Of a stretch of DNA of 64,000 nucleotides, positions 454 to 50,515 are shown piece by piece. A program made the position numbers and the translations under genes. The notes under the pieces were generated by a model that was given only the letters and a program-made list of their open reading frames with translations, did no database searches and had not been told where the DNA came from. Where the stretch lies: NCBI GenBank assembly GCA_960531495.1, contig OY482847.1, forward strand, positions 19,125,566 through 19,189,565, read 5' to 3'. This stretch comes from Zeus faber (taxonomy: Eukaryota > Chordata > Actinopteri > Zeiformes > Zeidae). Position 1 is the first letter of the stretch, and every line of letters starts with the position of its first letter.

Positions 454-589
454 CTGTTCTCCCATCAAAGGTCGTCCAACATTTCGTTCGTTATAATTGT
501 TCCTCCCTCGACTGGCTGAGCTCCCTCCTCTTAGTGTGGGGCCAGGGCCAGCTCTGCCTGGTCGCTCTGGGCGCATACGCACGGCTCCA
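454..589 (-). CDS. sltm: sltm exon 17
   Basis: 136 bp, acceptor ggcaaacag|TGGAGC after a long pyrimidine tract, donor GAACAG|gtcagc. Encodes [20 protein letters not shown] and continues to GRPLMGEQ. It matches VERPERSGRE..VRG of the family. It ends in phase 0; the following exon is off the window. Confidence 0.75.
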
Positions 590-3500
590 CTGTTTGCCGT
601 AAGGGGGAAAAAAATAAAAATAAAAAAATAGGTGATAAAAGGCCAACGATTGCCCGGGTCATTTGAATGCAGCTCAACCCATTTTATGCCCATTGCCCAT
701 TTAAAAAAATGAGCCAAAAAGGACCTCGATATACACAGAATCACTCATAGTATCACCCAAGCTGCAGCGAAATAATCATATCTACCAAGATCAGACCCAC
801 CAAGAGCTGAATAATATTCAGTAGAGACTACCACAGGGCAATGGCACAATCCAACTATCGACCAATAACGTGCCTCTCCACAAGTCAAGCATTTATTGTT
901 ATTTTGAATGTTCCCGAGTAGAGTGACTTGTGAAAATGTCTCTCTTCTGGAATGTTGTTTTTTTTTTTTTTTTTTAAGCTGCGGGACAAACATGGAAGCT
1001 GCTAAGTCAATCCTTTTCAGGTTCAATCCTGTATTTCGGATGAACCTATAACTGGCTTAGCTATGCATGTCTTTACATGTACATTAGTCTGATGTATACT
1101 TGCCATCGGTCGAGTAGTTTTATCAAAACAAACTTGAAGACTTATCGTACCGAATGTCTGCCTTGCTAGTGGCCATGCTGCTGTCGTTCTTCCATCCTCC
1201 GTGGCCTCCTTCTCTGAGGGAGCGGTTGTGTGACATGCCAGGCACGGTCACCCTGGCTCCGTCAGGCCGCTCCGGCATGGGCATGGGGCGTCTCTCATCT
1301 CTGTCCCTGCGGTCAGTGTCGCGGAGGTCAGCCCGAGCAGCAGGGGGCGCTTCAGCTCTGCGAACTGTGGTAAAGTTCTTAGGGTAGCGCTCGAACCCCG
1401 AGGCCTCTCTGTGCGGAGCAGGGCGAGTCTTCTTGGCTTCTGGCTCACCGTCAAAACGGTTGCGTCTGGAGCGCGGCACAGAGAAAATAATAGAGACAAA
1501 TGTCATTTTAGTTTGACTATTTTCACTGTAATCCTGGGAAAACAATAATTAAGCACGAGGTCAGCGTTGGTTCATTCTCATTGACAAACTGAACTTTACT
1601 TTCCTGTCGAAGGAATATAAAAATGTAAGCATTGTGCTTTAAGAAAAATCACAGCGTACAACCGCCTACTTCACAGTGTAAATACTTGTACCTGTCAAAG
1701 AGGCTTGTTTGTTCAGCAGCAGCCTCTGGGAAGCGACCGCCCCTGTCTCGGGCGTTGAAGTTAGAGAAACTGTTCTGCTGGCGGTTGTAGTCAGTGCCTT
1801 GGCCAAGACGAGCCTCAGATCCAGAAAACACTTTCTTGTTCCAGTAGGAATCATCTCTTTGGCAGACACATTGAGAAATTAGTGTGAGAACTTTACTCAT
1901 GAATACCACAGGGGACAGACAAATTGCATTTGTTATATAGGGGAACTACAGTGGTACTTTGACTTACGAGTTTAATTTGTTCCGTGACAATGCTCGTAAT
2001 TCAATCTGCTCGTAAAGCAAATCAAATTTCCCCATTGAAATTAATTGAAATGCCACTAATCCGTTCCAGCCCCCCAAAAAAACACCACATTTTTCTGTTA
2101 CGTGTTTTTAAATAAGAAAAATGCTTTTATAAATAACAAATATTATACTAAAACATAATAAAGCATAAAAGAGAATTTAAAGAAATAAACTGGTTTTATA
2201 CAGTGTATTTACCTTGGAGATCAGACGACTTGGACTAACGGAAGATGCTGGCGGAGGTGGGGGGTGGAGGAGATAGGCGGAAGAGGTTGGAGGAGTTTGT
2301 TTCATGCTTTTTCAGTCGCTTTCATTTGTTGCGACACTTTATTGCTGAACTTCATTGCTACAATTTATTTATTTTCAGTTCACTTTCGCTTAACTTAAAA
2401 AAATTTGCCAAATCCATCACACGCACACCTTGCTCATGTTTTTCAATGATTTCATGCTTTAATTCAATAGACATCATCCGCTTCCTCTTAGGACTTACTT
2501 TCTTAGGATCCATGGTTTGAAAAAATAAAAAATAAATTTGGCAAAATAACGGCACAAAAACCACAAAACGAACACAAAACACAAAAGAGACGCTTCCACG
2601 GTCAGGTAACCACGTGAAGTGAAAGAGTGAGATGCAGGCTGCTGCTCGCAAATCAATACAAAAAAATCATTTTAAAAATCAACAGAACGACGGCTTGTAA
2701 CTCGGAAAACTCGTATGTTAGTGTACTCGTAAATCAAGGTACCACTGTATATGGAAAAATATTAGTTGCCCTTTTTTAAAATCTTTGGATAACTGAAGTG
2801 AAGACAAAGTGTAGGCCATTGAATGCATCCACTGTATTTTGTAGTCTGCACCTTGAGTCCAAAGGGCAAGTAAAGACCATCAAATGCCTAATGCAGTCCA
2901 AAACTATGGACACAAATATTGACACTGATTTCCCCCCCCCCCCTTCTTCCTTCAATCATGGGATTTTCCCGCTCATTAAAAAAAGGTATTGTGCATATAC
3001 ACAGATCAGCCACAACATTAAAACCACCACTAATAACCACTAATATTGTGTTGCCACTCTCGTGCCGCCAAAACAGCTCTGACCCGTGGAGGCATGGACT
3101 CTACAAGACCTCTGAAGGTGTCCTGTGGTATCTGGCACCAAGACTATAGCAGCAGATCCTTTAAATCCTGAAAGTTGTGAGGTGGGGCCCCCATGGATCA
3201 GGCTTATTGTTCCAGCACATCCCCCAGACGCTCAATCGGATCGGACTCTAACCCTGCCATCCACATGTCAAAGTAAACGTGATTCATCAGACCAGGCCAA
3301 CTTCTTCGATTGCTCTATGGTCCAGTTTTGATGCTCACGTGCCCGTTGTTGCCGCTTCTTTTGGTATACCGGTCTGCAGCTACACAGCAAGCTGCGATGC
3401 ACTGTGTGTTCTGACACCTTTCTATCACAGCAACATTAACTTTTTCAGCAATTTGTGCTACAGTAGCACATTAATAAGACCATGACCCTGTCGCTGGTGC

Positions 3501-6500
3501 ACCGGTGTTCCTTCCTTGGACCACTTTTGGTAGTTACTAACCACTGCATACTGGAACACCCCACAAGACCTTTCATTTTAGAAATGTTCTGACGCAGTCG
3601 TCTAGCCATCACAACTTGAAACTTGTCAAAGTCACTCATCCTTACGCTTGTCAATTTTTCCTGCTTCCATCACATCAACAACTGACAGTTCACCTGCTGC
3701 CTAATATATTCTACCCCTTGACAGGTGCCATTGGAACAATATGATCAATCTTATTCAGTTTATGCCATGGGCACGCTACACGACTTTCAAAGTCATCAGA
3801 TCGCTGTACTGTTCACACTACACAACTTTATTTTGTGATCGGGAATCTTGCAGTCTTGTGTTTTGCACACTAGATGACTGAATGACTGAAGATCTTCCAC
3901 CAGGAGGAATCCCCGACCAGTCTCAGTTCTCCAAATTATGTTTTGTCACAAAAACACCGGAAATGACGTGATTCCATGCGCTGGTCTGGATTACTTTTTG
4001 TCATTAGATTCTTGATCACTGTTTAAATAACTAACAATTAAAAACCTAGAGAAGTAAAATAGGTATGTGTGTTTCTGGCAGCTGCTCAGTGCACGCCCGT
4101 CTTCCCATCTTGAGTTCACCCTCCCCCCACTCCGTGTCTGCTCTCAATGGCTCTAGCTTGTTGCGTCAACCCCGACATGGCCAGATTTTAAACCCGCTTG
4201 ATAGCTGTGATATCAGGGGCTTTGTTCGGAGCTCTCCAAAAACCTGTCGGCGAGTGGAAAATCAGACCAGAATCACATATTCTGAACTTGGCATTACCTG
4301 TCAGTGATTTTAATGTTGTGGCTGATCGGTGTATATCTATCTTAGGTGTCATCTGGTGAAGGCTACAGAAACCCTTGGTTAAAAGGAAGATCATTTTTTT
4401 CTTGCATTATTCTTTTGAGTTTCTACCATAGCCATTAAAGTGAAAAAATCAACAATGACATAAGGCATTTGAGCAAAGAAATACAAAAATAAAATTGCAG
4501 GTTTTGAGAATAATATGTAGCTCCCTGATTGGTTATTATTTTGTCTATCACTTTGTATAATAACGGTTCAATCCAGGAGTGTTGCAGCACTGTTGACAGC
4601 TAATTTTGTTCAGACTGTGGCGGACTGCCAGTAACAAACATGTTATGAGCAGGCCACAGACTTCAGCGGTTATGTTTTAAATTCGGTATTTCTCCAAAGA
4701 TTGTTTTACATTGACTGACTATTTGTAATTTCACTTGTATTACCACACTCTCTTGGAACCTGGCAACATGGAAGAACCTAAAACCATGACCACCAAAGAA
4801 AGTGAGGCTTTCACGCCAAAATCCAGTATGCATGTACCTGTGTTCCACATCGCGGCCCCTTTTCAGGTTGTTTCTTTTCTCCTGCTCGTAACGGAGCTGC
4901 TCCTGTTTCCTTCGCAGTTGCTCGCGTTCTCGGGCCAGTCGTTCTGACTCCTTGCGCCTTTCCTGAATCAAAATTTGCAGAGAAAGAAAGCTCTAATGAG
5001 TTTTATGTATGCAACCCAGCAATTAAAGAGTCAGTATAATTTTTTTACATTTCCGGATGCCACCACCATACAAATGGGTACGAATTATAAATTAAAAAGT
5101 GTGTTAATTCATTAACAAATTACATCACTGTATGATCCACAAGATAAAATAACATACTAATGATTACTGCAGTATTAACTTATATTTCCTCCAAACCAAA
5201 TTGGTGCAGATACTTATTTAATTATCATTGTTTTTTTAAATGCATGGTAACTTGAACGTTGTAAACTGTACCTGTACAATACGGAGGCTCTCTCTTTCCA
5301 GCCTCTCCCTTTCCAAGCGCTCCCTTTCAAGTTTTTGTCTTTCCATCTCAAGCCGTTGGCGTTCCCTGAGGAGGTTCTCTCTTTCTTCGCGCTCCCGCAT
5401 CAGATGAATGCGTCGTTCACGTTCTGCCATCTCACGCCGCCTAAAAGTATAAAGGAAACGCCAAACTAAAACAGATATATAAAGACGTAGTTTTTATTTG
5501 AGGGGAAAAAAAACGGGGGAAACAAAGGCTGGGTAGAGTTTGATTTCTTCTCATTGTAGTGGTCAGGGTGATATCTATCTATAGTTGAGTATTTGGAATA
5601 ATGGGTTGGAAGAGAAGGCCACCTGCGTAACTCCACGGCCCGGCGGATACGCTCCATTCGTTCACGCATCTTCTGCTCCTTCATCTTCTCAAAGGGAAGA
5701 ATGTCTGTGCCGCCGTCTTTATTCTGGAAAGGCCGTCTTTCTTTTATCATCTGTAACTGTAAGATGACAAGCAATTTAAGGCCAAATCAACAACAACAAA
5801 AAAATGCAAATAAGTCTCATGCCAAATATTGCAAAAGTGTAAAACCTCTTCGGGAGGGAGGAAACATCTGGGTCGCCGAATATTATTCATTACATTGGGA
5901 AAGCCAGGCTGAAAAGGGACACAATCATATTTAGCATTCCTTAATGTCAGTGAATCCTATTACTCAATTTTAAAACATAAATAATAATAATGCTACAAAT
6001 TACTTTTTCAAAATTTCTCCCCCTTCTGAAAGGTTGTCGCATTTTGTGGCAGTTGGGATCTCCTTTGGGATGATTCACCACCACCGTTCCAGGACTCTTT
6101 GTTCCTAAAAAAAAGTAAACAAACAAAACATTTTCAATCCACCTGCGCACACACATGGAAGAGAAAGTTCTTACATTTCTACCTTCTGATAACACAATGA
6201 AACTTACGAGTTTGCTTTTTATCATCTTTCTTGGAGAAATCTTGGTCTGAGCTGGATGGATCTGTCTCCGACTTTCCACTTTTAGACAAATCATTGTCTT
6301 TTTCTGAAGGTTTGTCTGACTTCTTATCATCGTTTTTGGATAAAGGTGAGGTTCTTTTAGAATAAGGAAAAGTATAGGTCTTTTAGGTATTTTTCTTTTT
6401 CAACTGAAAGCAATGGGATTTCTTTTGCAATTTTTCCTGTCACCCACTTGTTATTTGATTTTATTCCTGCGGAGGTGCGTTTGTCACTTGATTTGCTGGA

Positions 6501-9500
6501 GCTCGTTTTGTCCTCTGTTTCCTTCTTTGACGGTTCTTTCTTGAACGGATCACTTTTTGCCTAAAAACACAGCGGGAATCGGTCACATTTTTTAATAAAT
6601 TGAAATGCAGGTAGCATAATTAACTCTGGAGACAGATATGGATAACAATACTGTACAATCAAATGAGAGAATGTTTTTATCACCAAGCTGCTTCCATTCC
6701 AATGTTTTGCTTGCCAGCTCACCTTTTCAACATATATCTGTTGTCCGTGGAGGTCTGTCCTATCCAGGAGGGAAATGCAACGGGCCACCTCTGCACTGGA
6801 GGACATTGTCACCAAGCCGTAACACTTCGCTCCAGGACTGCGAGCATTTGTAACCACTTTGGCACTGAAAACCTGTTTGTAAGAAAGCATCATGAAGGTT
6901 TCATGCAATAAACATCGTATGCACCTTAGAAAATCCTAACATTTCCCTCAAAATGTTAAGGTTCATCATGTGTAATTGAACTGAATTGATGCCACACGTC
7001 ACATTTTCACAGCAGTGAGGCATGGAATGACTGGATGGTAAATGAGAAGCCTTGCTCTACCTTGCCATATCTTCCAAACAGGTTCTTCAGATCAGCTGCT
7101 TTGCTGTCAGATGAAAGCCCGCTCACCCATATGTTGCGAGAAGAGCTGTTGATGCTGCTGCTGGTACCGCCTAAACATATATATATAAAAAAATCCTTAG
7201 ATTCTTAGAATTTCCTTTAGATTGCAATTAATTAAAACTAGCTCATTATGGTCTTCACCTTTTTCATCCTTTGCAGGTTTTCCATCTCCATCTCTTGAAG
7301 AGCTACAAAGTAAATTTAGCAACAATGCGGAAAGACGTGAGCACAAGTAATTGAAAACCATAACCATAAACCATTTTGTTAAGACATTTTATGGAATAGA
7401 ACATCACATTAAGTATTTTTCAGGAAAAACAAATATCCCCATAGGCAAGGCGTGGTTTTGGACAAATCTCTGTAAGGCTTCTTTCACTGCTTTTCCACTG
7501 GTGAGATGGATCGGGCTGCAGCCAATTAATTCCCTCGACCAATGATATCTTCAGAAGTGTGAGCAACTTCACTGCGAATCGTTTCGGGAAAAAAAAAAAG
7601 AAAAAAAAAATCTGACATCACAGGGACTAATGCGCTTTTACAATGCCTTGTGTAGGAACTGGAAAAGGCATTAAAAGTGCTGGAAAGATGAAAAGTAACA
7701 GGTGGGTTTTTCCTCTCCTGGTAAATGCCACATTCTACTCAACTTCAAGGAATACATTATAGTAGTAAATGCCAGGATGAGGTACATCAGTGAACGTTTC
7801 CCTTACGGAAAAAAATGAAAACAAAATAAAAAAAATCTTGAGGCTACCCACAATGCTGCGTTCTTAGTGAGCTGGAACTTGGTAGTAGTAGTATCAAAGA
7901 ACTGACATAAAGACAAACCTCTTTGCTTGACCTGACGCCCCAGTAGAGGAGGGGCCTTTCTTCCCAGAATCCTTCTCCTTGTCTCCCGTTTCGGCTTTCT
8001 TCAAGGCCTCTCTGCTCTCCCTCTTCGTTGGCTCAACCTTGGGTCCATCGTCCTTCTTACCATCTCTATGGCCCTCTGTCTCTTCAACCTTCTCGTCATC
8101 ATCGGTGCCGGTTGCAGCAGAGGCCTCTGGGTCGTCAGAGCCCTTCTCAGTGTCTGCATCTAGGAGTTTCACATGTTTACCTGTTTCCAGGAGATCATCG
8201 CCATCGACATCTAGTGTGATGGCATCGTCATTCGGGATTGAGACTGATAGGTGATCGTCCTCAGCGTCTTTAGAGGCATCCATGGCTTCAGCATCCATCT
8301 CTGCTACGTCGGGCTCCCCATCGGCTTCGGGTTCAGCATCCACCTCGGCCTCGGGCTCTGAATCAGCCTCAACCACAGGATCTGACTCCTGTTCAGCCTC
8401 AGCCAGGGTCTCTGCCTCAGACACAGCCAGGCTGTCCTCACAGGTTGCAGGCTTTGAATCATCGTCAATACCATCATCTGTTCTAGTTACATCTGAGGGA
8501 TTTAATGAGGATAAACATGGCAGAACACAACTTTTAACAATATGTCGTATGTCACTTGATCTAGAAAGTTTAACAGAAAGAAAATTAAGTATTAGTGGTC
8601 ATCAAGGGCGTAGACACCACAGGGAGAAGCAAAACACACATCTGTCAGTGGGGCTCTGTTCTTCTTTCTTGCTGCGACCAAACTTGGGTCAAAATCCTTA
8701 TAGATGAGTTTGCAGTTCTGATGACGTCTCAAAAAGGTCTGGAAATTCTCAGGGAGTAACAACCTTGGTACGTGGGGTCAAACGTCATCACTCCAACAGC
8801 CAGTTCTTCCATGAGGAGAAATTCTGGACAGTCTAATAATATGGCAGGTCATCCTGATGGACATCTTCTACATCTTTACTGCCATGAACAGATGTCCTCA
8901 ATGTCTGCCTTAACCAGCAGATTTCAGAGTTTGTAAAAGGAATAAAAAATAAAACAAATCGGATCAAATTCACCTAGCAGTGTCTTGCCAAGTTGAATAT
9001 ATAATCTTTTCTTTGGTGTTAAATGGCTGCCGTGGCCAAGTCCCTGGGTCGTGCTCTTGTTGAAACGCATGCCGTGTGGTTTGTGCAGTAACAAAGGAGA
9101 GGATGCACACTGATTAGTTCCTTCAGCAGCCAATCAATGCATGCGTCTTGAGCCTGTAACAACCATCCGACTTAAAACCTCTGCACCACATCTTTAGAAC
9201 CAGTTCCAAAGTGTTGAGCAGGGCCTGAAATCTTGACGCTTCCATTCGTATGCTGGTGAAAAATGAGTCTTCCAAATAGCAGAGAAGTGTTTGATGGCCT
9301 TAATGTGTTCTTTGTGCCATTTATTGTTGCATGGCTGAGATGACGCCGATGGTGTTTCCGAATCCCTCCCCCGGGGATTACAAAGTACAACCTTAGCTTA
9401 TGACCAACGCAGCAGATGAATCCTACAATGGAGTAAGTTTCCATGGCTTCATACTAAAAGCGCTACCTGAAAAAAAATATTGGAAATTAGCAATATCCCT

Positions 9501-12500
9501 CACGGCGAACACAAACATACCTTTTTCGGATTCATCCTCCTCTGTGTCCTGAAAAAAGATGAATAAAAATGATCATCAGGCTCTTCCACTCAAGTCACTT
9601 TTTCTTCTTGCCCTCTTTGTCAATTTGTATTAGTAATCTGTATTTTGTGTAATCTGTTTCATACATGTTCAAGAGATTATTTGTCACATACATACACATA
9701 CGGTTGTACATATATGCAGTGAAATGTCATGACACCCGGTGATTACGCACAAGCTCAGAGGCCTGGGTGGAAAAGTGCCCAGGGAGTCTCAAAAAGTCAC
9801 AACCGAGTATGCCACAAGCGGACGGTCCCCAGCCAGTGATCTTTGTGCAGACAAATCCACAAAGAGTTCCATATCATACTGAAATTTACAAGAGCGGTAG
9901 TAGCAGGATCTGGGCAAGGTGAAGAAATAACGGCTATAGCTGCCAAGCAGTCATGTGGATCTCCATCGTCAGTGGTGGGGAGAATGGTAGCTGGATTAAG
10001 AACAGTGCGTCGTTTCAAAGTAGGCTTGTGCAAAATTCCATTCAGCGATCGCTGAGGGGCAGCAATTGCCAGTGACGATTTCATCAGGAAGGAGGGTTAT
10101 GCACATACAGCAGTCGTATTTACCAGCACAAAAGGGAATATACATAGGACAAGACCGTATTTATTGAAAGTGCATTGTTGACGTGCCACACCTTGATTGA
10201 GACCATTTTCCCTTCTACTTTATCTCAGCTATTGCCCTGCAAATAAAAGCCAAATTGTATAAAAAGGTAAAAATCTGATCTGATCACCTCTATGGACACA
10301 TGACTGCTGTTTTACAATAGACAATTAATCCTATTATATAATTATAGAACCCAGAATCGTGATTGTGTAACCTTGCCCATAGGTTGCCTTTAGGCTTTCA
10401 CATATTCACTTTGTTTTTAACAGAATGATCACAAGAGGATTATCTCTCCTATCATGTGAAGGACAAATCAACCCCCCTCCCTCCCATCATAGGATAAAGA
10501 AACCCCAAAAAGTCTGCACATGCCTTTTAGCATGGAAACATTTTATGTCCCTGCCAGGGCTCGAGAGTAACGGCGCCCCGTCGCTAGTCCCGAAGATAGA
10601 AAATGTGTTTGGGACAAGCAGGGATGAAAGGGATTTTTGTAAATATAGCCCCTTTCCCACATGGAATCCGTAACATTGCTGGATAATAAATATCTGGAAA
10701 AGGCGTTAGGTAGTGATTCTTACATAGGCGCCTTTACGGAAAAGTTCCGTATGGAGTCTGTTCCCACCTAAATTACTGTTTATGGATACATTATGTCATT
10801 CCTGCCCAAGAGGTATCTAATATCATGTGAGACTAGGCAACAGAATCGGTTTTTAAACCAATGCTTCGCTTCCCGTCTCCACCACCCCCTGGACACATTA
10901 ATCCTAAACCCCAAGTTATGAAATCAGTCTGATTGTTTTCAACCAGTCCTACACTCTCTGCCTCTGGAAAATGAACTTTCTCCACCCATTCTCCCTGTCC
11001 CTGTCCGTTCACACCTTTTTTCAGCTCCGCACTGCGGTGCAGCCGGAGAGCAAGCGAAGCACTTGTGCCCTATGTCCTGCACGATCGCACAGCACCCCTA
11101 ACTGTAAAAGACCTGTCTAGGGTCTGAGTGGCATACTGAAGAAGAAAAATAATAAAATGTAAGACTATAAAGACCTGTCTCCGCAGGTCTCCACATGTTT
11201 CAGTTTCTCGTCTTTGCAGCAGAGCGTCCCGGCTCGGACTCAAACATTTTTAAGAATGTTTTTTTTCTTCTTCCCGAAAACAAATATATATTTTTTACAT
11301 TTGTTTGTTATATATACACTGGTAAAAACCCACTATTTTTGCTTTATTTTGATTCCGCTCCAGCCGTTCTTTACAGAAATGTTACTGCTTCCATTCCCGC
11401 ACACTTCCATTCACAGCTGTTCTGGCAATTTGCCGGAAATTATACTACTTCGAGAGTGGGGAAATTTACGCAACATCCGACACCAGCTTCCTTTCCCACA
11501 TGGGGCCAATAAGGAACATTGCCAGTAGATTTACGGCTTTCAGTGCAGGTGGGAAAGGGGCTTATGTATGACCATCGCTGGAAAATAAACTGAACAGAAC
11601 ACTGACTACATCGGAGCGTGTCTTCTCATGCTGTTACTATAGATATGGTGGATGGCAGAGTCCTGCTGTGTGTGGCTAACGTAGCTAACAGAGGTAATAA
11701 AGCTCAGTGCTAATGGAGCAGAGTTCCTTGTCAGAGGAACATGAAGTGTTAAACAGTGGGCTTGGGCGAGATTCCAATCGGCGATTGCTGGGGGGGGGGG
11801 GAAGCGATCGGTGGGGTTCGCACACGCACATAGAACGTTATGTAACATGGAAAGTGCGGTCTCCCTATCGCAGAATGCAGGAGTTATTATTTACACAAAA
11901 ACATCCAGTTTTTACTCAATTAAGTCTCATAGCAAAGCAATGGGGAGACGTGCGTCCCGACAGGGGGAGTTACACACATGTAGGAAACAAACATTTTAAT
12001 TTTCCATCCAAGTGAGACACTAAGGAAATAAAATACATCTAAAAACTCTCTATGAGATTATATTATATATTGCTATATTATTATCACAGCATTTGCATAT
12101 AGAGCGGCAGGGAGGGAGAGGCAGAGGGAGCGAGACCCTTAATCGTAAATCGTCCCAAGCCAAATCGACTGTGAACTGCAGTTTAATGTGGCAACACAAC
12201 AAGTTTACTGTTATAATGTCAAGGTTTCAAAAAAAATGATTCAGAGTCCAAGAGGACTGGATAGGAGTCCACAGAAGAGCAGTAGACTTCTTGTTTACTG
12301 TAACACCCAAAACTCTCTATGCAGTCCCAGCTCACTCTCTTTTATGTTCTAGAGACTGCCCTGACTCTGGGACCCCACATATACCCCCATGGTGGTCATC
12401 TGACTGCCTAACGACAAATAACATTGCCTAATTGAAAATAAACATTCACATGACAACATTTACTGTAAATAAATGTACTAAAGTACTTCAGCTGTTTGGA

Positions 12501-15500
12501 GTTTGCAGGTAAACATACTTTAAGTTCAGAGTTAAGACACTTTACAGTGTATAAGTTATATTTTACCAAACTTCTGTCAGAGACTCCAGTTCTGTACTGA
12601 CGTTTGTGTGCTGACAACATTTTCATGGTGTTTCAATATGTCACAACCATATAGGATAATAACAAAGTTAAGAAACAACATTTTGATTTTGGGACGTTTA
12701 AATTCAATTCCGAACTGTTAAAATTGTTTGACAGGACGGTTCTGGGACAGTGAGGGAAAAAGTTAGTCTGGAGCCTTGGTACCTACGATATCTTTTTCAA
12801 AACATTTTTCCTCTCCACTGCAGATTACAAACATGAACAATGAGCATATTTTTTCTGGTAGGATTTGTTCAGTGGTTAGGGCTGCCCTCAAATAGCTGAC
12901 GAGATGAGTCTTATTTGACCAAGTTTTTCCATTGGTTGGTTGGTCTCAGGGGAAAATGAAAGAAATGAGATTCGGGAGCTCCGCCTTGTCAAAATTAAAC
13001 CTTAAAAGGCTAGAGGGCTTTTAATTTAAAACAAATTCTAACAAAAATAAATGTTCAGTCTCCTTGCTGGTTGTTACAACACAATCAGGAGAATAATTAC
13101 AGCATTTGATGGTAATTAACAGGCGGCTCGCTTCTTGTGAAAAGGTTCATTCTTGTTATTGTGTTGGTGTTATAAATTAAAGTTGATAAATTAACTAAAT
13201 TCTCTGTCCCCTTGCTGAATTTTCCGACACATTCAGAATTGGGACGTTCCTAAGGACTAATTTCCCCGACGCTTAAACGGAAATTTATACTGAAGACTCG
13301 TCGACTAGTCTAAAAGTCTGAAAAAATATTGCATATATCATAAGATCCATTTTAAGGTGTTAATCAAATTCTTCAATAACCAAATCGTATTTTAGACGCT
13401 CCGACGGACCGGGTGGAGGCGGGCTGGTGGTGCGCCCCAACCCCAGGGGGCTGGGGATGGGGTGGTCCCGGGAAGTGCCGAGGTCGGGCGGAGTGGTGCT
13501 GTAGAGCCTGCGGCCTTCCCGGGTATCCCCTCGTTAGGGACTGGGTCGCTAACAAGGGCATGCTGACAACGGGAAAACAATCTTCTGTACGCCACATTTC
13601 CGTGCAAATTATGACAATATGTAATTTAAATGTGTACATTAATAAAATAATAATAGGGGCAAATAAGTTTAACCGATTTAATGATTAACCGGTGAAATTA
13701 ACAGCCGGCTTGCTTCGTGCGCGCAGATCTCGTAAATTACATTTATATTTTAAAGGCTGGTTATAAGGTTTTGTAATTATCTGTAATGTAGCCTAGCGTT
13801 AACAATGCTAGTTATAACATTCTTTCTGAGCCCTGGAACTCAAACCATTTTCTGATGCCCCAAAAATATATTTGAATAATTAAAATTAATATCATAAAGG
13901 TGCGACAATTTGTCAACTAATAGCTTGAACTGACTACTTACAGCTGACTAGGAAAATCTTAGCCCTAGTGGTAGTGCACAACTATCAAAAGCAAAATTGC
14001 TTTAATGAAATACTGGTTCAAACGAATTTCTTGCTTGTCGCATGGACCTCTGACAAAACAGTCGTGGCATTTTTACACCATTTGGACTGGTCATTAGGAT
14101 GAGCCCATATTTAAATGTGACGTGAAGAGGCTTTGAGAACTGAGTCAAATACAAATTACCAAACGTACGCTACACTCACCTTGGCATAGGAGTCTTCATC
14201 AGCGGTGTTTTCTGTGTCTGAATCAATTCTTTTCCCTTAAGAGTAAAATACAAAAAGACAAAGAGTCAAACTTACATTAGCTCAGTTAACATTCCTTGTT
14301 TCCAATCAAAACAAAGTTTAAACATTACCTTTAGCCTTTTCACTTTTCCTTGTAAGTACATCTGAATTCAGTGGGATTTCACTATCATGATCACCACTTC
14401 CCTCCTCCAGAGCCTAAAAAAATCAGAAGAAAAAATGATCACTAAGTATTTTGAGAAAATGAAGTTTAAAAATTCAAAAAGGTTAACAAAGTTGGATATG
14501 AAAATACAATAGGTTAAATAACAGTTTTAAGCTGTTCTGTGCCATAAATTGACTTTTGATGAAAAAGTATTTTTATTGTATTTTCTTTGATATGCCATAT
14601 TTTTAATTTGATCCATTGCATTCATTTTTGTTAGATTAAAAAGCAATACATTACAGTTATTTTTTTCTTTTTAAATAACCAAGCTTTTGGTTACATTGAT
14701 TTGCTATTAAGTATGGATCATTTGAGAGCAAATGGAGGTGAGAAATTAATTGTAGTCCTCGACCAGTGTTTTTCCAACCGCAGTTCCCCAGGATGTCACG
14801 ATTTTTTTTTTTTTTTTAATTCCACTCCTTAAAATAAATAATGGAAAACATCTCTTGTGTTACAATATCAAAATTGCAAGGCTATACTAAATGATCACTT
14901 CCTACTTTACCAGCTCTTTGTTCATCATAACAAGCCCTGTGCTCGTCATTCAACCAGCTCTGTCTCAATCAGAACAAGCTCCAGTTTCACACTGAAAGTG
15001 GGAACTATTAATAGGCCGTGATGATAACAACAGTTCTACATGTTTGTGACGTTTTAGTGGTTAGTGGCGTTTCCATTGTGAGAAGTGTATCGTGGTTGAA
15101 AAACGGTTGGGAAACACTGGTCTAGAAAGGTCAAACGCCAATTATATCAGGGTTTTCGTTGTAAACAAACAAAAGCAGTAACAACTTATTTTAGATTTAA
15201 AAAATATATAAATAAATAAAAATCGTTCAAACTGCGCGTGTTAAGCGAAAGTGTTCCTTCTCTAACAAATGCCATTGCCAATTAGCGTCAAACGGATGTG
15301 AAAGCGACATTTATGAATAAAGTCTTATATCGTGCAAACACATTCCAAGTGGTCGAAACGGGTCTTAAGCCAAGACATAAGCCGCTGCACCTTCCATGTG
15401 TGGGTTACAGAACACCCAGAGCCCACTTACACCACCGGTCTTGCACGGTCAACACGCTGACAACACAAACATGCACGGCCAACACGCTGCTCTTATCTTT

Positions 15501-17305
15501 TCGGTTTTAAAATTAACTTTGAAGTCCGAATTAGCCTGGGTCAGTTCCGTTGCATCGCCTTGACCAACATCCTGCAGATGACAAACCGAGATTTACATGA
15601 TTTACCCGCTTCAACCTCGTGGCCAAGATACTCTTCACGCCGGATACGTCCAAATTGATCCGTTTGAGCTCCGATTTAAGATCAATTACTCGCAAATCTG
15701 CGATTTTCTTTGCCTCAATGGAAATGGCACCCGACGCCATTTTAGCTCAAATTGTTTTGCTGGTGCGCGCATGCGCCGACGCTTTTTGACCCCCACCGCC
15801 ACAACGTCCCCAATTTATCAAGTTTCATTCCTCAGTAAATTGTGCGTCGTGCACGCACCGTGGAATTATCTAATTTTTGCAAACTTGTTTAATCGCAAAG
15901 TATCGCCGTCAAGCGACTGCGGGGATTTGGAAACCACTCGCAATGCAGGACCCACCCCGCCAGAGTACAGTCGGTTTCATGTTGCAGGCTCGATATCCAG
16001 CTTCAAAATGCAGAGACTTTTGAACCAGGCGGCATTTTAGCACCTGACACTGCAGCACAACCAAGAGCTCCGAGTGCAGTCGAGCTAAATGTTACAGTTC
16101 ATTAAAATGTCGGTGCTGAACATAACGTGTGAAGCGATAAGATAATGTCACTTGGGGGATAACTGGAGCCCACCCCAACTGACAGTGGGCATAAGGCGGG
16201 GGGACAGCGGGGCAGGGGCCCATTGCAAGACCACAACACATTCACTCATTCGCAATTTAAGAATCTCTGATAAGCTGCATGTTGTCAGAAACGCATTAGT
16301 CAATTTCCCAATAACACGCTCATAGACAGTTAGAAACATTAAGTAAAAATAGTGTGAATCCATCAAGTAATAAAATACTGCGAAGGCCAGATTCAACAAT
16401 GTGTTATATTGGCAATGGCAGAGGAAGGAAAAGTGGCGAAAAGTTAAGAGAATGAGTACGTTATGACAGCAAGGAGAGAGAGAAGGGAGAAAGCCTATTT
16501 AGGCAACACAACCACCGCATCACACACACACACACACACGATTCATATACCATCCAATACCAATCATGCCCCAGCAGTATCAATTTCAAATGTTTGGGTG
16601 GTCACTCATCACATTTCATTTGCTGTTCACACACAGTTCATTCCGAGTGGTGTGGACACACCTTTCGCTGTTTACATTTGGGTTGGGCCCTTTGAAGCTA
16701 GTGAAATGAATGAAAACACCCAATAAGAACAGACATAACAAAATCTTGGGTCAAAAACAAACATATTAAAGGGTCGTTGGTGGCACCACAAGCTTTGACG
16801 TAAGTTCCAACCAATGCAAATATATTGCGCACATATGCAAAACAGAATTTTCATGAAATGGGCATTGCTCTTATTAATGAATATTTATTTTAGTGCTGAA
16901 ATGGTGTTGTCATGCTGAAAAATACAACCTCCAAAATAAAACAAACTTCCAAGCGGCCTATAAACTAAGTTCTATGGCCTATAAACAATTGTAAACAAAA
17001 CAACCATAATAACGAAACCATTTTAAATGCACGGTCAGCTTTTCTGTGACATTTTCGATTTAAAATGAGCTCACAGTAGGAATTAGCCTGAGACACATCA
17101 CAGTTCGACCGCATCACACTGACCATCCTGCACAGAGAAGAGGCTGAGATGTGCATGATTTGTTATTTACCTGCTTCAGCCTTGCAACCAGGACACTCTT
17201 CACACCAGACGCGTCCAAACCCCTTCGTTTGAGCTCCGATTTAAGATCAATTACTCGTAAATCTGCTATTTTCTTTGCCTCAATGGAAATGGCACCCGAC
17301 GCCAT
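454..17305 (-). CDS. sltm: sltm, SAFB-like transcription modulator (5' and middle part; C-terminus outside window)
   Basis: Nuclear SAFB-family protein that binds DNA and RNA and acts as a general transcription repressor (family knowledge). Seventeen exons join with consistent phases to 857 codons: 17171-17305 (or 15606-15740), 14329-14413, 14180-14235, 9521-9548, 7919-8477, 7259-7302, 7061-7170, 6723-6872, 6448-6560, 6208-6353, 6004-6104, 5623-5756, 5272-5440, 4838-4962, 1692-1856, 1151-1465, 454-589. Domain order is N-terminal SAP, acidic Asp/Glu region, RRM (RNP2 IWVSGL, RNP1 KCYGLVTM), Lys/Ser-rich linker, [11 protein letters not shown] and a long Arg/Glu coiled coil, then an Arg-rich tail. 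The RRM and DILPFEKM segments resemble SLTM more than SAFB. The human protein is about 1,030 residues, so roughly 150 C-terminal residues are missing to the left. It is head to head with rnf111, as in mammals. Confidence 0.94.
1151..1465 (-). CDS. sltm: sltm exon 16 (Arg-rich tail)
   Basis: 315 bp, acceptor gctccag|ACGCAA, donor ATTCG|gtacga. The junction with exon 15 gives FDRRNRF (FERRDRF in mammals). Encodes [20 protein letters not shown]... ending KADI. A CTCF-like core lies inside the coding sequence on the opposite strand. Confidence 0.9.
1335..1355 (+). promoter_or_regulatory. CTCF-like motif inside sltm exon 16
   Basis: The AGCAGCAGGGGGCGCTTCAG core lies on the strand opposite to the coding sequence. 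Confidence 0.35.
1692..1856 (-). CDS. sltm: sltm exon 15
   Basis: Acceptor gccaaag|AGATGA, donor GACAG|gtacaa. Encodes [20 protein letters not shown] and [20 protein letters not shown], matching the DDPYW...YSRQQNRFNDFD region of SLTM. Confidence 0.9.
1949..2747 (-). mobile_element. Tigger/pogo-like DNA transposon, internally deleted
   Basis: Terminal inverted repeats CAGTGGTACTTTGACTTACG and (right end, reversed) CAGTGGTACCTTGATTTACG, flanked on both sides by the TA target duplication. On the minus strand at 2358-2511 it keeps the start of a transposase: [20 protein letters not shown] then [20 protein letters not shown], a CENP-B/Psq-type helix-turn-helix. The DDE domain is missing, so the copy cannot move itself. 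Confidence 0.8.
2996..4334 (-). mobile_element. Tc1-like transposon remnant with a second element inserted
   Basis: The left end GATCAGCCACAACATTAAAA and the mirror right end TTTTAATGTTGTGGCTGATC are the terminal repeats of a common fish Tc1-like family. On the minus strand at 3445-3654 lies the transposase N-terminus ([20 protein letters not shown]...GLVGCS), and 3066-3200 is the eroded C-terminal coding region. Most of the catalytic core is deleted. Homology stops at about 3757 and resumes at about 4294, so roughly 535 bp of unrelated DNA was inserted there. Confidence 0.75.
4838..4962 (-). CDS. sltm: sltm exon 14 (coiled coil end)
   Basis: Acceptor ttgattcag|GAAAGG, donor CACAG|gtacat. 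Encodes [20 protein letters not shown], then [21 protein letters not shown]. Confidence 0.92.
5272..5440 (-). CDS. sltm: sltm exon 13 (Arg/Glu coiled coil)
   Basis: Acceptor tacttttag|GCGGCG, donor GTACAG|gtacag. Encodes [20 protein letters not shown] and continues through [21 protein letters not shown], the long charged helix of SAFB/SLTM proteins. Confidence 0.92.
5623..5756 (-). CDS. sltm: sltm exon 12
   Basis: Encodes [20 protein letters not shown] then [22 protein letters not shown], donor CGCAG|gtggcc. Two in-frame acceptors, 6 bp apart (start at 5756 or 5750), are equally good. Confidence 0.85.
6004..6104 (-). CDS. sltm: sltm exon 11
   Basis: Acceptor tttttttag|GAACAA, donor GAAAAA|gtaatt. 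Encodes [20 protein letters not shown] and RRGRNFEK, matching the SKSPGHMVILDQTKGD...RRGRYEK block of the family. Confidence 0.87.
6208..6353 (-). CDS. sltm: sltm exon 10
   Basis: Acceptor ttctaaaag|AACCTC, donor ACTC|gtaagt. Encodes [20 protein letters not shown] and continues to [10 protein letters not shown]. The acceptor tract is weak, but the frame demands this junction. Confidence 0.72.
6448..6560 (-). CDS. sltm: sltm exon 9
   Basis: Acceptor gtttttag|GCAAAA, donor AACAA|gtgggt. Encodes [20 protein letters not shown]..., the Lys/Ser-rich linker after the RRM (VEKVKGDPSKKE in mammals). It is followed by an intron of only 94 bp. Confidence 0.8.
6723..6872 (-). CDS. sltm: sltm exon 8 (RRM, second half)
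   Basis: Acceptor acaaacag|GTTTTC, donor GAAAAG|gtgagc. Encodes [20 protein letters not shown] and then [20 protein letters not shown], ending IYVEK. It contains RNP1 and is nearly identical to mammalian SLTM by recall. Confidence 0.94.
7061..7170 (-). CDS. sltm: sltm exon 7 (RRM, first half)
   Basis: Acceptor atgtttag|GCGGTA, donor GGCAAG|gtagag. Encodes [20 protein letters not shown] then GRYGK: RNP2 (IWVSGL) and helix 1 of the RRM. Confidence 0.92.
7259..7302 (-). CDS. sltm: sltm exon 6
   Basis: 44 bp, acceptor tttgtag|CTCTTC, donor AAAAAG|gtgaag. Encodes [14 protein letters not shown] between GQAKS and the RRM. Phase 2 in, phase 1 out. Confidence 0.8.
7919..8477 (-). CDS. sltm: sltm exon 5 (large acidic exon)
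   Basis: 559 bp, acceptor gaacag|ATGATGG, donor AAGAG|gtttgt. Encodes an Asp/Glu-rich region ([20 protein letters not shown]) followed by the conserved block [20 protein letters not shown] and the end [21 protein letters not shown], both diagnostic of SLTM. Confidence 0.92.
8478..9520 (-). other. sltm intron 4
   Basis: A 1.0-kb intron. I see no coding exon and no recognisable repeat; short open frames here match nothing I know. Confidence 0.5.
9521..9548 (-). CDS. sltm: sltm exon 4 (28-bp micro-exon)
   Basis: Acceptor ttttttcag|GACACAG and donor AAAAAG|gtatgt. Encodes DTEEDESEK plus one base. It decides the acceptor of the next exon (8477, not 8482): only that choice keeps the frame (..ESEK-D-DGIDDD). 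Confidence 0.78.
9663..9735 (+). repeat. CACATACATA-tail repeat, copy 1
   Basis: TTCAAGAGATTATTTGTCAC, then CATACATACACATAC and ATGCAGTGAAATG. Same family as 27302, 31364, 38785 and 59860. Confidence 0.55.
10645..11564. mobile_element. MITE-like element with AGCCCCTTTCCCAC ends
   Basis: The left end AGCCCCTTTCCCACATGG and the right end, read in reverse (AGCCCCTTTCCCACCTG), form inverted repeats of about 35 bp, both followed by CCGTAA-type sequence. No transposase frame inside. A clean target duplication is not visible. Confidence 0.55.
11836..12010 (+). repeat. dispersed repeat segment, sltm-intron copy
   Basis: Related in order to 27755-27945 in an rnf111 intron: both carry TCTCCCT, a GTTATTTAC-like tract, ACAAAAACATC, AATTAAGT, GGGGAGAC and AGGAAACAAAC-like blocks. 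It is probably an internal part of the same hAT-type family. Confidence 0.5.
13395..13560. other. GC-rich patch in sltm intron
   Basis: About 165 bp clearly more GC-rich than the AT-rich surroundings, with CpG steps. The open frames on both strands match no protein I know. Confidence 0.4.
14180..14235 (-). CDS. sltm: sltm exon 3 (acidic linker)
   Basis: Acceptor tcttaag|GGAAAAG and donor CCAAG|gtgagt. Encodes [19 protein letters not shown] in frame with exon 2. The 56 bp keep the frame on both sides. Confidence 0.8.
14329..14413 (-). CDS. sltm: sltm exon 2
   Basis: Acceptor ttttttag|GCTCTGG and donor CTAAAG|gtaatg. Encodes [20 protein letters not shown] and then TRKSEKAK, the segment directly after the SAP domain in the family. 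Phase 0 in, phase 1 out. Confidence 0.85.
14764..15119. mobile_element. hAT-type MITE
   Basis: CAGTGTTTTTCCAACC at the left and GGTTGGGAAACACTG at the right form inverted ends of the hAT/Charlie type. About 356 bp with no coding capacity. Located in sltm intron 1. Confidence 0.6.
15606..15740 (-). CDS. sltm: sltm first coding exon, proximal copy A (duplicated SAP domain, possible alternative first exon)
   Basis: 45 codons, intact, with the same ATG context and donor phase as copy B. The first 26 residues are identical to copy B; the second half reads [20 protein letters not shown]. The donor is CGG|gtaaat. Homology continues about 25 bp upstream of the ATG and patchily about 80 bp into the following intron, so this is a genomic duplication and not a retrocopy. 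It could be an alternative first exon with its own promoter or a decaying copy; absence of stops and a preserved splice site favour the former. Confidence 0.7.
15741..17170 (-). other. interval between the two sltm first-exon copies
   Basis: About 1.4 kb. It holds the proximal copy's putative promoter (15741-15800), a short CA repeat at 16521-16540 and the decayed intron-side homology of copy B (17050-17150). No other gene is seen. Confidence 0.55.
15767..15776. promoter_or_regulatory. NRF1-type palindrome, proximal copy
   Basis: GCGCATGCGC, the core of the NRF1 consensus, 27 bp upstream of the copy A ATG. It is the counterpart of the site at 17331. Confidence 0.5.
17171..17305 (-). CDS. sltm: sltm first coding exon, distal copy B (SAP domain)
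   Basis: 45 codons from ATG (17305-17303) to donor CAG|gtaaat. Encodes [20 protein letters not shown]... followed by [19 protein letters not shown], a complete helix-extended-helix SAP motif. It ends in phase 0 and joins exon 14329-14413 ([12 protein letters not shown]), matching the RLKQ-AIEEEGG junction of the family. The RR and final Q match the SAP consensus better than the proximal copy does, and this copy is nearest the divergent promoter, so I take it as the probable main first exon. Confidence 0.85.
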
Positions 17306-17330
17306 TTTAGCTCGAATTGTTTTGCAGGCG

Positions 17331-17342
17331 TGCGCATGCGCA
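17331..17342. promoter_or_regulatory. NRF1-type palindrome, distal copy
   Basis: TGCGCATGCGCA, a perfect NRF1-like palindrome 26 bp upstream of the copy B ATG. NRF1 sites are typical of CpG promoters of housekeeping genes, which fits sltm. Confidence 0.55.
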
Positions 17343-18460
17343 CAACCTCCCCCTTTGACCCCATCCTCTTACTTTATTCATCTTTATTAACCAGTGACGA
17401 TAAATTAAACAACGTGGGAACCGTGAAAGAGGTTTATATACCCACCATCGTGAAAAATGTGGGTCTCAACTTTTCTACATTTGTATATGTAAAGGTGTCG
17501 CCCGTTCCACAAGAAATAATTGAGCGCAACAATGCAATAAATCAGCGCTTTAATAAAAGATGAGAAAAGCCCCCAATTCTTGCAAGCTTGCCTTTACAGG
17601 TAGCCCCACTTCTTCAACACACATCTGTCTGACTTGGAACCATGTGCAAATCATGCACAAAAGCAGGAACATTCATAAAGGGTGGATAAAGGTATTCGTC
17701 TTGTCGTGCACTATATTATAAAACTAGATTATATTGTAAATCTCTTTGCCATGCAGGCCTGGGACGATAGTAGTTCCTAATCTGTGAATTTGATTTGTTA
17801 CGCATCTCTGATAGAAAATACAGCAGCAAGAAAAACCGCAGATCATTGCTTGTTCGTTCTGGGAAAGAAACGGTCTGGTCTGATTATGATAAAACGTAAT
17901 TTATATCAAGCACATCCCTCACCTCAATATTATTTTTTTTTGTGGAAAATGTGATCCACTTATTGATATATTTTTGTCTGAAAATATATTTTTTCCTGCT
18001 ACACGTCTGTCCGTACAACCCTCACCAGGACAAACTCCTTGTATATGAAAATGAACTGCATATGACAAATCAATTGATTCTAATAGAGGCATCGATGAGC
18101 TAGACCCACAATAAATCGAAATATAGAATTATTATACATGATCATATATTTTTTATGATATGTACACAATTTATATTATATGTATAAATGTTCATATTAT
18201 TATTATTTTTTTATTGTTATTATACAATTGTTTTTAACCTTTCAGAGTTTTTTTCCCCCAAATTATAACAGGCTTGCATGAGTGCTATTGGGACTCGTTT
18301 TGCAGTAACGGGTATACGACATACGCTCTGTGTCGACATCATGATTTCCAACATCTGTGTCACCGTGAATGACGCGCAATACTCCAGAGGCGTGAAATAT
18401 GTAACTAATAGGCCGTAGCGAGCTGTCGCAAAGTGTCGTAAAGTAGTCGCGGTGGGGTTT

Positions 18461-18477
18461 GGCGCCCCCTGGTGGCC
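18461..18477 (-). promoter_or_regulatory. CTCF-like motif near rnf111 exon 1
   Basis: GGCGCCCCCTGGTGGCC; its reverse complement, GGCCACCAGGGGGCGCC, is very close to the CTCF core consensus. Confidence 0.5.
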
Positions 18478-18539
18478 CCGAGGAGCTCCGCGCGTCGTAT
18501 CAGCAGTCAGCAAACAGACGAGTCGCTTGATAAACAACA

Positions 18540-18944
18540 GCGGATGCCTCGAATATCCAGGAATGGCAACTTCGTCGAGGGCTAAATAGTGAGGCGTTTC
18601 TCCTTCTCCGTGGCTTGGCTATACCAGGGAGTACTCGCTAGTCAAAAAATATCACACCCCGGATTGAGACGTTGTGAAATAACCGACTTATCCGGTCCTT
18701 TAACCAGTGGAGTGTGGCTAACGCTGAGATTAGCTTAGCTCATCGCCGTCCAGGGCCCGTTCCCTCCGCACTGTTCCTCATCTCTGGCCGGTGTCAGCTT
18801 CACCATCGCCGGATCTCGACATGTATGTCGGCCAGCCTGGGTTCATAGCTACGAATAATAGCTAGACAGATCCAATCCTCTGGGATTACTCTCTTACATG
18901 TTACGAAAGGGCCGGTGACGAATTAAAAGAACGCCTCTGCTCAG
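18540..18944 (+). other. rnf111: rnf111 5' UTR exon 1
   Basis: CpG-rich, with a consensus donor CTCAG|gtatgt at its end. The 5' limit is a guess. It contains a 14-codon upstream reading frame (18821-18865). Confidence 0.6.
18821..18865 (+). CDS. upstream ORF in rnf111 5' UTR
   Basis: ATG to TAG encoding MYVGQPGFIATNNS, fully inside the 5' UTR exon. Short upstream frames can reduce translation of the main frame. Whether it is in the mature mRNA depends on the true transcription start. Confidence 0.35.
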   Translation: MYVGQPGFIATNNS

Positions 18945-19145
18945 GTATGTTTGGTCTTTGTTGTCTTTTTTAACATTATGTGCTGGTAGTTTACTGGCTC
19001 CATCCTGTCAGGTTGCCTTAGGCCTTAGTGGTCAATTTAAATATACGTTGATTTAAGCAACATTTTTGGTGTCGACACAATGTGATTTTATCTAATGACC
19101 TCTTTTCAGTGGCTCTATATGTTTTTCTTATGGGGAGCCACAATA

Positions 19146-20843: not shown

Positions 20844-20918
20844 CTATCTATCTATCCATCTATCCATCTATCCATCTATCTATCTGTCTATCTGTCTATC
20901 TGTCTATCTGTCTATCTA

Positions 20919-20973
<55 letters not shown>

Positions 20974-20978
20974 GTCAG

Positions 20979-21021
<43 letters not shown>

Positions 21022-21026
21022 GTCTA

Positions 21027-21069
<43 letters not shown>

Positions 21070-21086
21070 GTCTATCTGTCTATCTG
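20844..21086. repeat. TATC/TGTC compound microsatellite
   Basis: About 240 bp of mixed TATC and TGTC units; open frames across it are artefacts of the repeat. Confidence 0.95.
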
Positions 21087-22995
21087 GTAGTCTTGTCTGT
21101 TCAACATTCCCACATTTCCTATATTCCAAAACAACAGAAAAAACATCCTTCACCACAAACATTTAAGCTGTAACCAACTGGTTATTTTCCATTTCCAATG
21201 CCACATAGTGGGCAAATAGTGGAACCACCTCTTGCCCATGTTGCTTCCTTTATCACTATATTGTTCAAGAATGTCAGTAAAAGCTGCTCTTTTTTTAAAC
21301 AAATGTACTGAAACACATTGCTGTTTGCATTGATGAATATTCCATATCCACTTTGGTGGTGTATTCCCCCCTCTCGTTTCTGTTAATTAAATTCATCATT
21401 TCATTTGGAATACTGTACATACATAGTGGCAAACACCCTTGTGAAACAGTAGCCGCATTCAATGACAACAAAAATGTAGATTATCCATAATGGAATGGGC
21501 AGATAACAAGGAAATTGTAACCCAAATTGTATTGTATCTGAAAGTATTTTCAGAGACTTTACTGTAAAATGTAAAACAACACAGTATTTTAGTTGTAAGT
21601 ATTTTACAGTAAAATACAATTCTACTGTAAAATAACACCCAAACCAATCAATTGATGTTCATAATTATTTACTGTTTAGTTTGAGATTATCGATATCTTT
21701 GAGAACCTACTTGGTGTCAAGTGAGAGGTTCTCAATTTAATTGAAAACATCTACAAACTGTTTTTCTGACGTTACAAGTTGTTATTAAATCTTTTCTATA
21801 CAGTATGAATTTGGGTCTACCATTGTGAGTACAATTACTAAACGCATATAAGTAAACTGCTGTTAACATCTTTCTATAACCAACCAACCAACCAACCAAT
21901 CAGTCAATCAAAGACTACATACCATTGAGAAACAAGGAACTTGTTTTCCTCTTAGATTATTGGAGTATGTAGCTAATGTGTATCTAACTTTGAGTTTTCT
22001 CTCGTAAAATGTTGTCATTTGATTGAAAGTATTTCAAATATTTTGGCAGTTGTGGTATCAGAGGGGCCCCCATAAGAGAGAAAATGTCAAATCTGTCTTA
22101 ATAGGCTGGTTAAAAAAAATCGCTACCCAAAACAAGTGAATCAGGATTTGTCCCAGGTCTCACGTATATCTTGGATTGGAGCAGATCATCCTTGACAACA
22201 TCAGCATAAACCTGCTTCTAGACACAACCTAGTTTTAGTGTCACCTTGCTCATTGAAAAACCAGGCTCGAGATGGGAGGGGCTCTCCTGTTACTCTGGTC
22301 AGATACTCAATTAATAGCAGGCATGTAAAAAAAAAAAAAAAAAGAATGAAAGAGCATAATCCATCAATATGTCTTAAGTAGGCAGTATGCTCTCAACTAA
22401 GACCTTCATGAAAAAAATAACACGTGCAGACATGTCCCTATACACAGTTGTCGGTATATGCAATAAGAACTGTTTTTACCCTGATACGGTGAGGAATTCA
22501 ACAGGATTAGATAGAGGATCTGTGCCTCCTGGCATATCAATAGTGAAGCAGCCAGTCATGTGATATTTGGACCAATTGCAGACAGGGGGAGGTCCACAAC
22601 AGGTGAATAGGATGTTCTGGGGCATACACACCGCCACATATGAATTCAAAACACTGTCTTTTTGTTAGTGTCATGCTCGGAATGATTTTTCGTGAATTAC
22701 CAGCTTAAAGACAGAGATGATCACTCCATAACAATGTTTTTGTAATTAGACAATTCCTCAAAGTTTAATTGTCAGATTTGTGTTTTGTGACATACATAAA
22801 ATATTTTTTAAGACTCCAATTTAACCACGTTAAAGCCAACGACTATCTCAGTTATTTTCATGAAAATTATATACATGACTATGGACCTTGTGCATAATTC
22901 TTTTGTTTTGCCTTTTAGGTTTTGTGCGATGCCACTGACAGACACCTAGGAAGCTGCATCATTACTTGGTGCTGCATCTGTGAGGACTTGCCACC

Positions 22996-50515
<27,520 letters not shown>

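Follow-up and report, generated by a model that had tools for sequence, protein, structure and literature searches.

Two candidate first exons with diverging SAP halves in sltmB, the upstream member of a tandem sltm pair in Zeus faber

Partial tandem duplication of a first exon has a described precedent in PEP1 of Arabis alpina, where a duplicated exon 1 (1a/1b in tandem), copied along with parts of the promoter and of intron 1, is reported, together with a second transcript sharing exons 2-7 and separate start sites found by 5′ rapid amplification of cDNA ends (5′ RACE; PMC3527215). Here we describe a comparable arrangement in sltmB, a predicted SAFB/SLTM-family gene of Zeus faber that carries a distal and a proximal first coding exon (1D and 1P) and lies in a 64,000-nucleotide stretch of the assembly GCA_960531495.1 (contig OY482847.1, here C3, positions 19125566-19189565; hereafter the window). 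As in PEP1, a partial tandem duplication has placed both copies of exon 1 ahead of one exon 2, to which both are predicted to splice; PEP1, however, is a plant FLC-type gene whose copies lie 6.3 kb apart (PMC3527215), against 1,565 bp in sltmB. Unlike in PEP1, the domain halves encoded by the sltmB exons differ, sltmB as a whole has a tandem partner (sltmA), and the case is known here from sequence alone. Humans have one sltm gene, whereas this fish has two in tandem, one with a second first exon bearing an altered SAP domain. Clustered protocadherin-type loci join many first exons to a shared body, and sltmB resembles them in its predicted alternative promoters, each with its own first exon ahead of shared downstream exons, but has just two such exons. 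The principle of many first exons and a shared body is named in PMC4835542. In domain layout the predicted fish products are like human SAFB1, SAFB2 and SLTM, which are described as having an N-terminal SAP domain, a central RRM and a Glu/Arg-rich tail (PMC9958909, PMC10901741).

Duplicated teleost genes are likewise known to undergo gene conversion, with 164 genes reported (PMC10503786), and the sltm pair resembles these in having stretches that appear homogenised after duplication, here in a strongly patchy manner and with the SAP end left diverged. Both kinds of event are thus on record, and for sltm neither was found described among the literature matches listed; no title or abstract opening among those matches mentions an sltm duplication or an additional first exon of sltm, which does not establish absence from print. 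In Nile tilapia, a tabulated proto-Y region includes a stop-gain variant in a 'SAFB-like transcription modulator' whose frequency differs between the sexes (PMC4251933). A scan of viral contigs for relatives gave 12 pattern matches, none of them confirmed, as expected.

Exons 1D and 1P are each 135 nt (45 codons) long and open throughout, begin with ATGGCG, share the opening ATGGCGTCGGGTGCC and end in a phase-0 GTAAAT donor directly after the last codon. The two intact first exons that the sequence-only reading had placed about 1.57 kb apart, with the same ATG context and phase-0 donors, are therefore there. Exon 2, proposed as their common acceptor, has an AG acceptor in phase 0 and keeps the frame from either copy, across an intron 1 of 2,757 bp from 1D or 1,192 bp from 1P. 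The 10-base palindrome GCGCATGCGC, which we take to be the core of an NRF1-type site, occurs exactly twice in the window, in each case 26 bp upstream of one of the two ATGs. The locus thus has two copies of exon 1, each with an ATG, a donor and promoter-proximal sequence, before one exon 2, as tandem first exons should. The identification of the gene as sltm also agrees with its SAP domain, RRM, Glu/Arg-rich tail and locus context.

An in-frame TGA stands six bases ahead of the ATG of 1P, so the whole 1P exon would be usable solely as an alternative first exon, and its use as a mutually exclusive inner exon spliced from 1D is ruled out. Both in-frame AG acceptors within 160 bp upstream of 1P run into stops (acceptors inside 1P fall outside this check).

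The ungapped repeat shared by the two copies is 177 nt long with 87% identity, and similarity can be detected over some 310-320 bases, from near −40 bp to roughly +145 bp into the intron (comparison with shuffled sequence gives z = 10.1 and 12.8 for this clear part). Beyond it, similarity from −40 to −150 is weak (z = 2.5), and farther out it is shuffle-like. Downstream, the intron starts that follow 1P and 1D match at 99 of 122 aligned bases, with 15 gap openings (one of them terminal) over ~140 bp. With the similarity so confined, most of the 1,565-bp spacing holds no recognisable duplication; a head-to-tail duplication unit of 1,565 bp is unsupported, though older homology may have decayed.

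The residues encoded by 1D and 1P differ at seven places in the second half of the SAP domain, all of them within codons 27-45. A duplicated SAP domain had been proposed from the sequence: two SAP exons are present, but with seven residue differences in the second half 'the same SAP domain twice' overstates the case. In the SAP domain of SAFB2, R45A is reported to abolish secondary structure, K53A/S54A to leave the domain folded but without DNA binding, and S31A merely to weaken binding (PMC9958909). We matched SAFB2 R45 to codon 28 through that paper's numbering of N46, K53 and S54. Codon 28 is Arg in 1D, in sltmA and in a safb-like exon elsewhere in the genome, and Ile in 1P; the Lys-Ser of the K53/S54 positions is kept in both copies (GVKS in 1P). 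By its sequence, 1D would encode a normal SAFB-type SAP domain, with Arg and Lys-Ser at all of these positions. Arg occupies the codon-28 position in six of six PDB SAP chains with printed alignments (four proteins) and in 15 of the genome's 22 remaining SAP matches (1D, sltmA and the safb-like exon included). On fragments of 73 amino acids (first exon plus exon 2), Pfam SAP scores 45.5 bits with 1D and 31.2 bits with 1P, against a cut-off of 23.9 bits; on full products it scores 36.5 bits for sltmA and 26.7 bits for sltmB with 1P. From these comparisons we expect the SAP domain of 1P to be weakened or altered, not certainly dead.

Our preferred reading, to which we assign a probability of roughly 0.57, is that both promoters are used and that 1P yields an isoform whose SAP domain is altered and probably weaker. 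The two sltm genes stand in tandem on one strand, and in sltmB a piece of at least ~310 bases, running from the core promoter through the first coding exon into intron 1, would later have been copied once more. Each copy would start transcription from its own promoter, giving 1D transcripts and 1P transcripts and so two SLTM-B proteins that differ only in codons 27-45, which encode the turn and the second helix of the SAP domain. Wherever the 1P promoter is active, its isoform would keep the usual RNA-binding and Glu/Arg parts but hold DNA in a weakened or altered way. Because 1P lies inside the first intron of 1D, read-through from 1D may dampen it.

CpG content is an indirect sign of promoter activity. 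The observed/expected CpG ratio over 500 bp around the ATG is 1.29 at 1P (equalled or exceeded in 6 of 1,271 overlapping windows) and 0.95 at 1D (88 of 1,271); among the 15 top windows, six lie at 1P, six before rnf111 (17951-18700) and three elsewhere. The CpG richness of 1P is consistent with a germline-unmethylated promoter. The higher ratio at 1P would also suit a situation in which 1P is the main sltmB promoter today and 1D a minor one, SLTM-B having moved off SAP-based DNA binding and sltmA keeping the ancestral role; sltmB exon 2, too, is strongly diverged from that of sltmA (nonsynonymous divergence, dN, 0.37; synonymous divergence, dS, 0.80). We consider this quite improbable, as the better-kept SAP domain, the better donor and the full palindrome all belong to 1D. 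A search of 13500-19500 against Rfam gave no match.

Whether 1P is maintained or decaying bears on the preferred reading. Exon 1P has no indel in its 135 nt, against the 15 gap openings of the adjoining ~140 bp of intron; at the rate of that intron, an indel-free run of 57 nt would arise by chance with a probability of 0.002, which is approximate, as the number of gaps varies with the aligner. The 17 nucleotide changes in codons 27-45 produce seven amino-acid differences, where 9.9 would be expected in the absence of selection (p = 0.05); among neutral simulations of these codons, 37% hit a stop. Several observations nevertheless weigh against the preferred reading. The neutral-selection result is marginal, and the 5′ half of 1P looks freshly copied from or to 1D, so that an open frame in this half is poor evidence of selection on 1P. 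Whereas an NRF1-type palindrome had been claimed ahead of each copy, the core is indeed present at both, but the full 12-mer, TGCGCATGCGCA, is found at 1D only, and the donor of 1P is the weaker, matching the consensus at 7 of 9 places against 8 of 9 for 1D. Exon 1P carries four unique amino-acid changes and 1D one, with two sites differing in all three of 1P, 1D and sltmA, counts too small to argue for either relaxed or positive selection. Exon 1P ranks 20th of the 23 SAP matches in the genome (1D 10th, sltmA 11th), which is also expected of a decaying copy. Phe, Cys, Met, Leu or Ala (three cases) stands at the codon-28 position in 7 of the remaining 22 SAP matches, so that Ile may be tolerable and would not necessarily destroy the fold, and the step to a weak SAP domain may itself be wrong. 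AlphaFold2, run on the single 45-residue sequences with five models each, gave best confidences of 87.7 for 1D (predicted template-modelling score, pTM, 0.56) and 80.8 for 1P (pTM 0.37), a weak point in favour of an altered SAP domain in 1P, but the five-model ranges overlap (67.2-87.7 for 1D, 68.6-80.8 for 1P). Foldseek returned no match at E ≤ 0.001 for either model; at E ≤ 10 it returned one for 1P and 216 for 1D, with no SAP domain named among the best 50 of 216. From single-sequence models with no match at the stricter threshold, structure adds little.

On a rival reading, 1P is a decaying or rarely used leftover in intron 1, with sltmB expressed from 1D alone and conversion with 1D keeping the 5′ end of 1P young while its second half drifts. 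The unique changes of 1P, the Arg-to-Ile change among them, its lower Pfam score and best AlphaFold2 confidence, its weaker donor and its palindrome short of 12 bases all fit such decay. We nonetheless think it somewhat unlikely, because 1P has neither stop nor indel while the adjoining intron shows 15 gap openings, its CpG retention is above that of 1D, and its donor and palindrome core are retained.

The differences between the two copies are unevenly spread, at 5 of 102 nt from the last 24 leader nt to codon 26 against 17 of 57 nt in codons 27-45 (p = 2.5e-5, Fisher's test), and third positions repeat the pattern (2 of 26 in the 5′ part against 7 of 19 in codons 27-45, p = 0.02). Such a pattern would result either from conversion covering the promoter and first half or from a faster pace of change in the second half. 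In a tree of 34 shared codons, 1D and 1P group together against sltmA and the safb-like exon (bootstrap 83 and 87 under two models), with bootstrap values for this grouping of 64 on the 5′ part and 92 on the 3′ part. This grouping suggests that the exon was probably duplicated inside sltmB after the gene duplication; alternatively, a second exon 1 may have been lost from sltmA.

The larger finding at the locus is the complete tandem gene sltmA. With 1D as DNA query against the fish's own genome (803 Mb, 153 contigs), a search in which only the best candidates were scored found three places: 1D, 1P and C3:19120515-19120654. The last is exon 1 of sltmA, another complete sltm gene, which lies beyond the window with its coding sequence at C3:19107922-19120646 on the same strand as sltmB and downstream of it. 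Since sltmA begins 3.7 kb past the last coding exon of sltmB (C3:19124347), sltmB is the upstream member of the pair. A partial RRM query likewise found three places, namely sltmA, sltmB and a site on contig C1 close to the safb-like first exon, so that the genome shows two sltm genes and a single presumed safb. The pair is flanked by a MINDY_DUB open stretch on the far side of sltmA, which we take to be mindy2, and by an RNF111_N stretch upstream of sltmB; the order MINDY gene, sltm, rnf111 is presumably ancestral. By this placement, apart from the presumed safb on C1, the pair would be SLTM rather than SAFB. The acceptor of sltmA exon 7 (C3 ~19115625) has a run of ~19 A in place of a pyrimidine tract, so that splicing of this RRM exon may be weak.

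Both gene models, whose exon borders were set by similarity between the two genes, AG/GT ends and frame, without a gene finder, have 19 coding exons, with every intron GT...AG and no internal stop, and predict products of 949 amino acids for sltmA and 950 for sltmB with either first exon. The exon 9 donor was picked to hold the frame open, identically in both genes; an exon 9 ending in AACAAG breaks the frame, and the GT donor one base earlier was used. Pfam RRM_1 scores 34.7 bits in sltmB and 43.2 bits in sltmA, at residues 321-390 in both, and the Glu/Arg-rich tail can be read directly in exons 12-14 of both. The two predicted proteins thus show the N-terminal SAP domain, central RRM and Glu/Arg-rich tail of the SAFB/SLTM family.

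Synonymous divergence between the two genes (NG86 dS, exon by exon) is strikingly patchy: 0.94 in exon 1 (1D against sltmA), 0.80 in exon 2 and 0.68 in exon 3, undefined in exon 4 (9 codons), then 0.02, ~0, 0.04, 0.09, 0.57 and 0.17 in exons 5-10, 0.40, 0.55, 0.30, 0.52 and 0.03 in exons 11-15, and 0.01, 0.23, 0.03 and ~0 in exons 16-19. One stretch of 912 bp (430 exonic and 482 intronic) is exactly identical, and further exact runs measure 242, 153, 142, 127 and 102 bp. Near-identical blocks that include introns thus lie amid diverged sequence, as in paralogues under gene conversion, and the pattern looks like recent conversion between old tandem copies, with exons 1-3, the SAP end, left unhomogenised. 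The 912-bp identity could also be taken as a sign of an assembly artefact, through uncollapsed haplotypes or false duplication; this we regard as very improbable, since the differences between 1D and 1P in codons 27-45 and the dS of 0.7-0.9 in exons 1-3 are far above allelic levels, and the identical stretch is bordered by diverged sequence within a 40-Mb contig.

Table 1. Features of the sltmB locus. Coordinates are positions in the window unless prefixed C3.
Feature	Position	Strand	Basis or remark
sltmB exon 1D, distal first exon, SAP with Arg28	17171..17305	-	donor CAG/GTAAAT; Pfam SAP
sltmB exon 1P, proximal first exon, SAP with Ile28	15606..15740	-	donor CGG/GTAAAT; Pfam SAP
NRF1-type core palindrome (presumed), full 12-mer	17332..17341	.	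26 bp before ATG of 1D
NRF1-type core palindrome (presumed), 12-mer incomplete	15767..15776	.	26 bp before ATG of 1P
Intron 1 start after 1D, counterpart of 15473..15605	17024..17170	-	alignment
Intron 1 start after 1P, similar to intron after 1D	15473..15605	-	alignment
sltmB exon 2, common acceptor for 1D/1P	14329..14413	-	frame, AG acceptor
sltmB exon 3	14180..14235	-	sltmA/sltmB similarity, splice ends, frame
sltmB exon 4	9521..9548	-	similarity, splice ends, frame
sltmB exon 5, acidic region	7919..8492	-	similarity, splice ends, frame
sltmB exon 6	7259..7302	-	similarity, splice ends, frame
sltmB exon 7, RRM first part	7061..7170	-	similarity, splice ends, frame
sltmB exon 8, RRM second part	6723..6872	-	similarity, splice ends, frame
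sltmB exon 9	6448..6560	-	donor picked for open frame
sltmB exon 10	6208..6353	-	similarity, splice ends, frame
sltmB exon 11	6004..6104	-	similarity, splice ends, frame
sltmB exon 12, Glu/Arg-rich tail	5623..5756	-	similarity, splice ends, frame
sltmB exon 13, Glu/Arg-rich	5272..5440	-	similarity, splice ends, frame
sltmB exon 14, Glu/Arg-rich	4838..4962	-	similarity, splice ends, frame
sltmB exon 15	1692..1856	-	similarity, splice ends, frame
sltmB exon 16	1151..1465	-	similarity, splice ends, frame
sltmB exon 17	454..589	-	similarity, splice ends, frame
sltmB exons 18, 19, left of the window	C3:19125157-19125314, C3:19124347-19124455	-	sltmA/sltmB similarity
Exact sltmA/sltmB identity, 912 bp	7437..8348 = C3:19115963-19116874	-	sequence comparison
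rnf111 open coding stretch, divergent neighbour upstream of sltmB	22984..23922	+	RNF111_N 460.7 bits

Elsewhere in the window, a tandem array of TCTATCTG (240 bp, 30 units, 20844-21086) lies upstream of the rnf111 coding stretch, and the open stretches 46929-47234, 47972-48382 and 52687-53280 resemble, by eye, pieces of a transposase that we take to be of Tc1/mariner type.

A wider and doubtful extension of the preferred reading treats the locus as a modular unit, in which three diverging promoter-plus-SAP front ends (sltmA, sltmB-1D and sltmB-1P) would sit on two bodies whose acidic and C-terminal parts are held near-identical by ongoing gene conversion. Selection would then act to diversify the chromatin docking of SLTM with its other partner surfaces held constant, and the one form with a crippled SAP domain could compete with the others. 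SAFB proteins are reported to restrain transposons (PMC10901741), so a conflict with the transposons of this fish could lie behind such modular front ends.

If the fish does use both first exons, promoter choice would have led to the evolution of a SAP-altered isoform in a vertebrate SAFB-family gene, and the 1P isoform would be nature's equivalent of the engineered R45A mutant. Comparison of the 1D, 1P and sltmA products within one animal would then allow a test of what the SAP domain does in SAFB proteins, in a gene pair that looks like a case of gene conversion fixing some parts while the DNA-binding end diverges.

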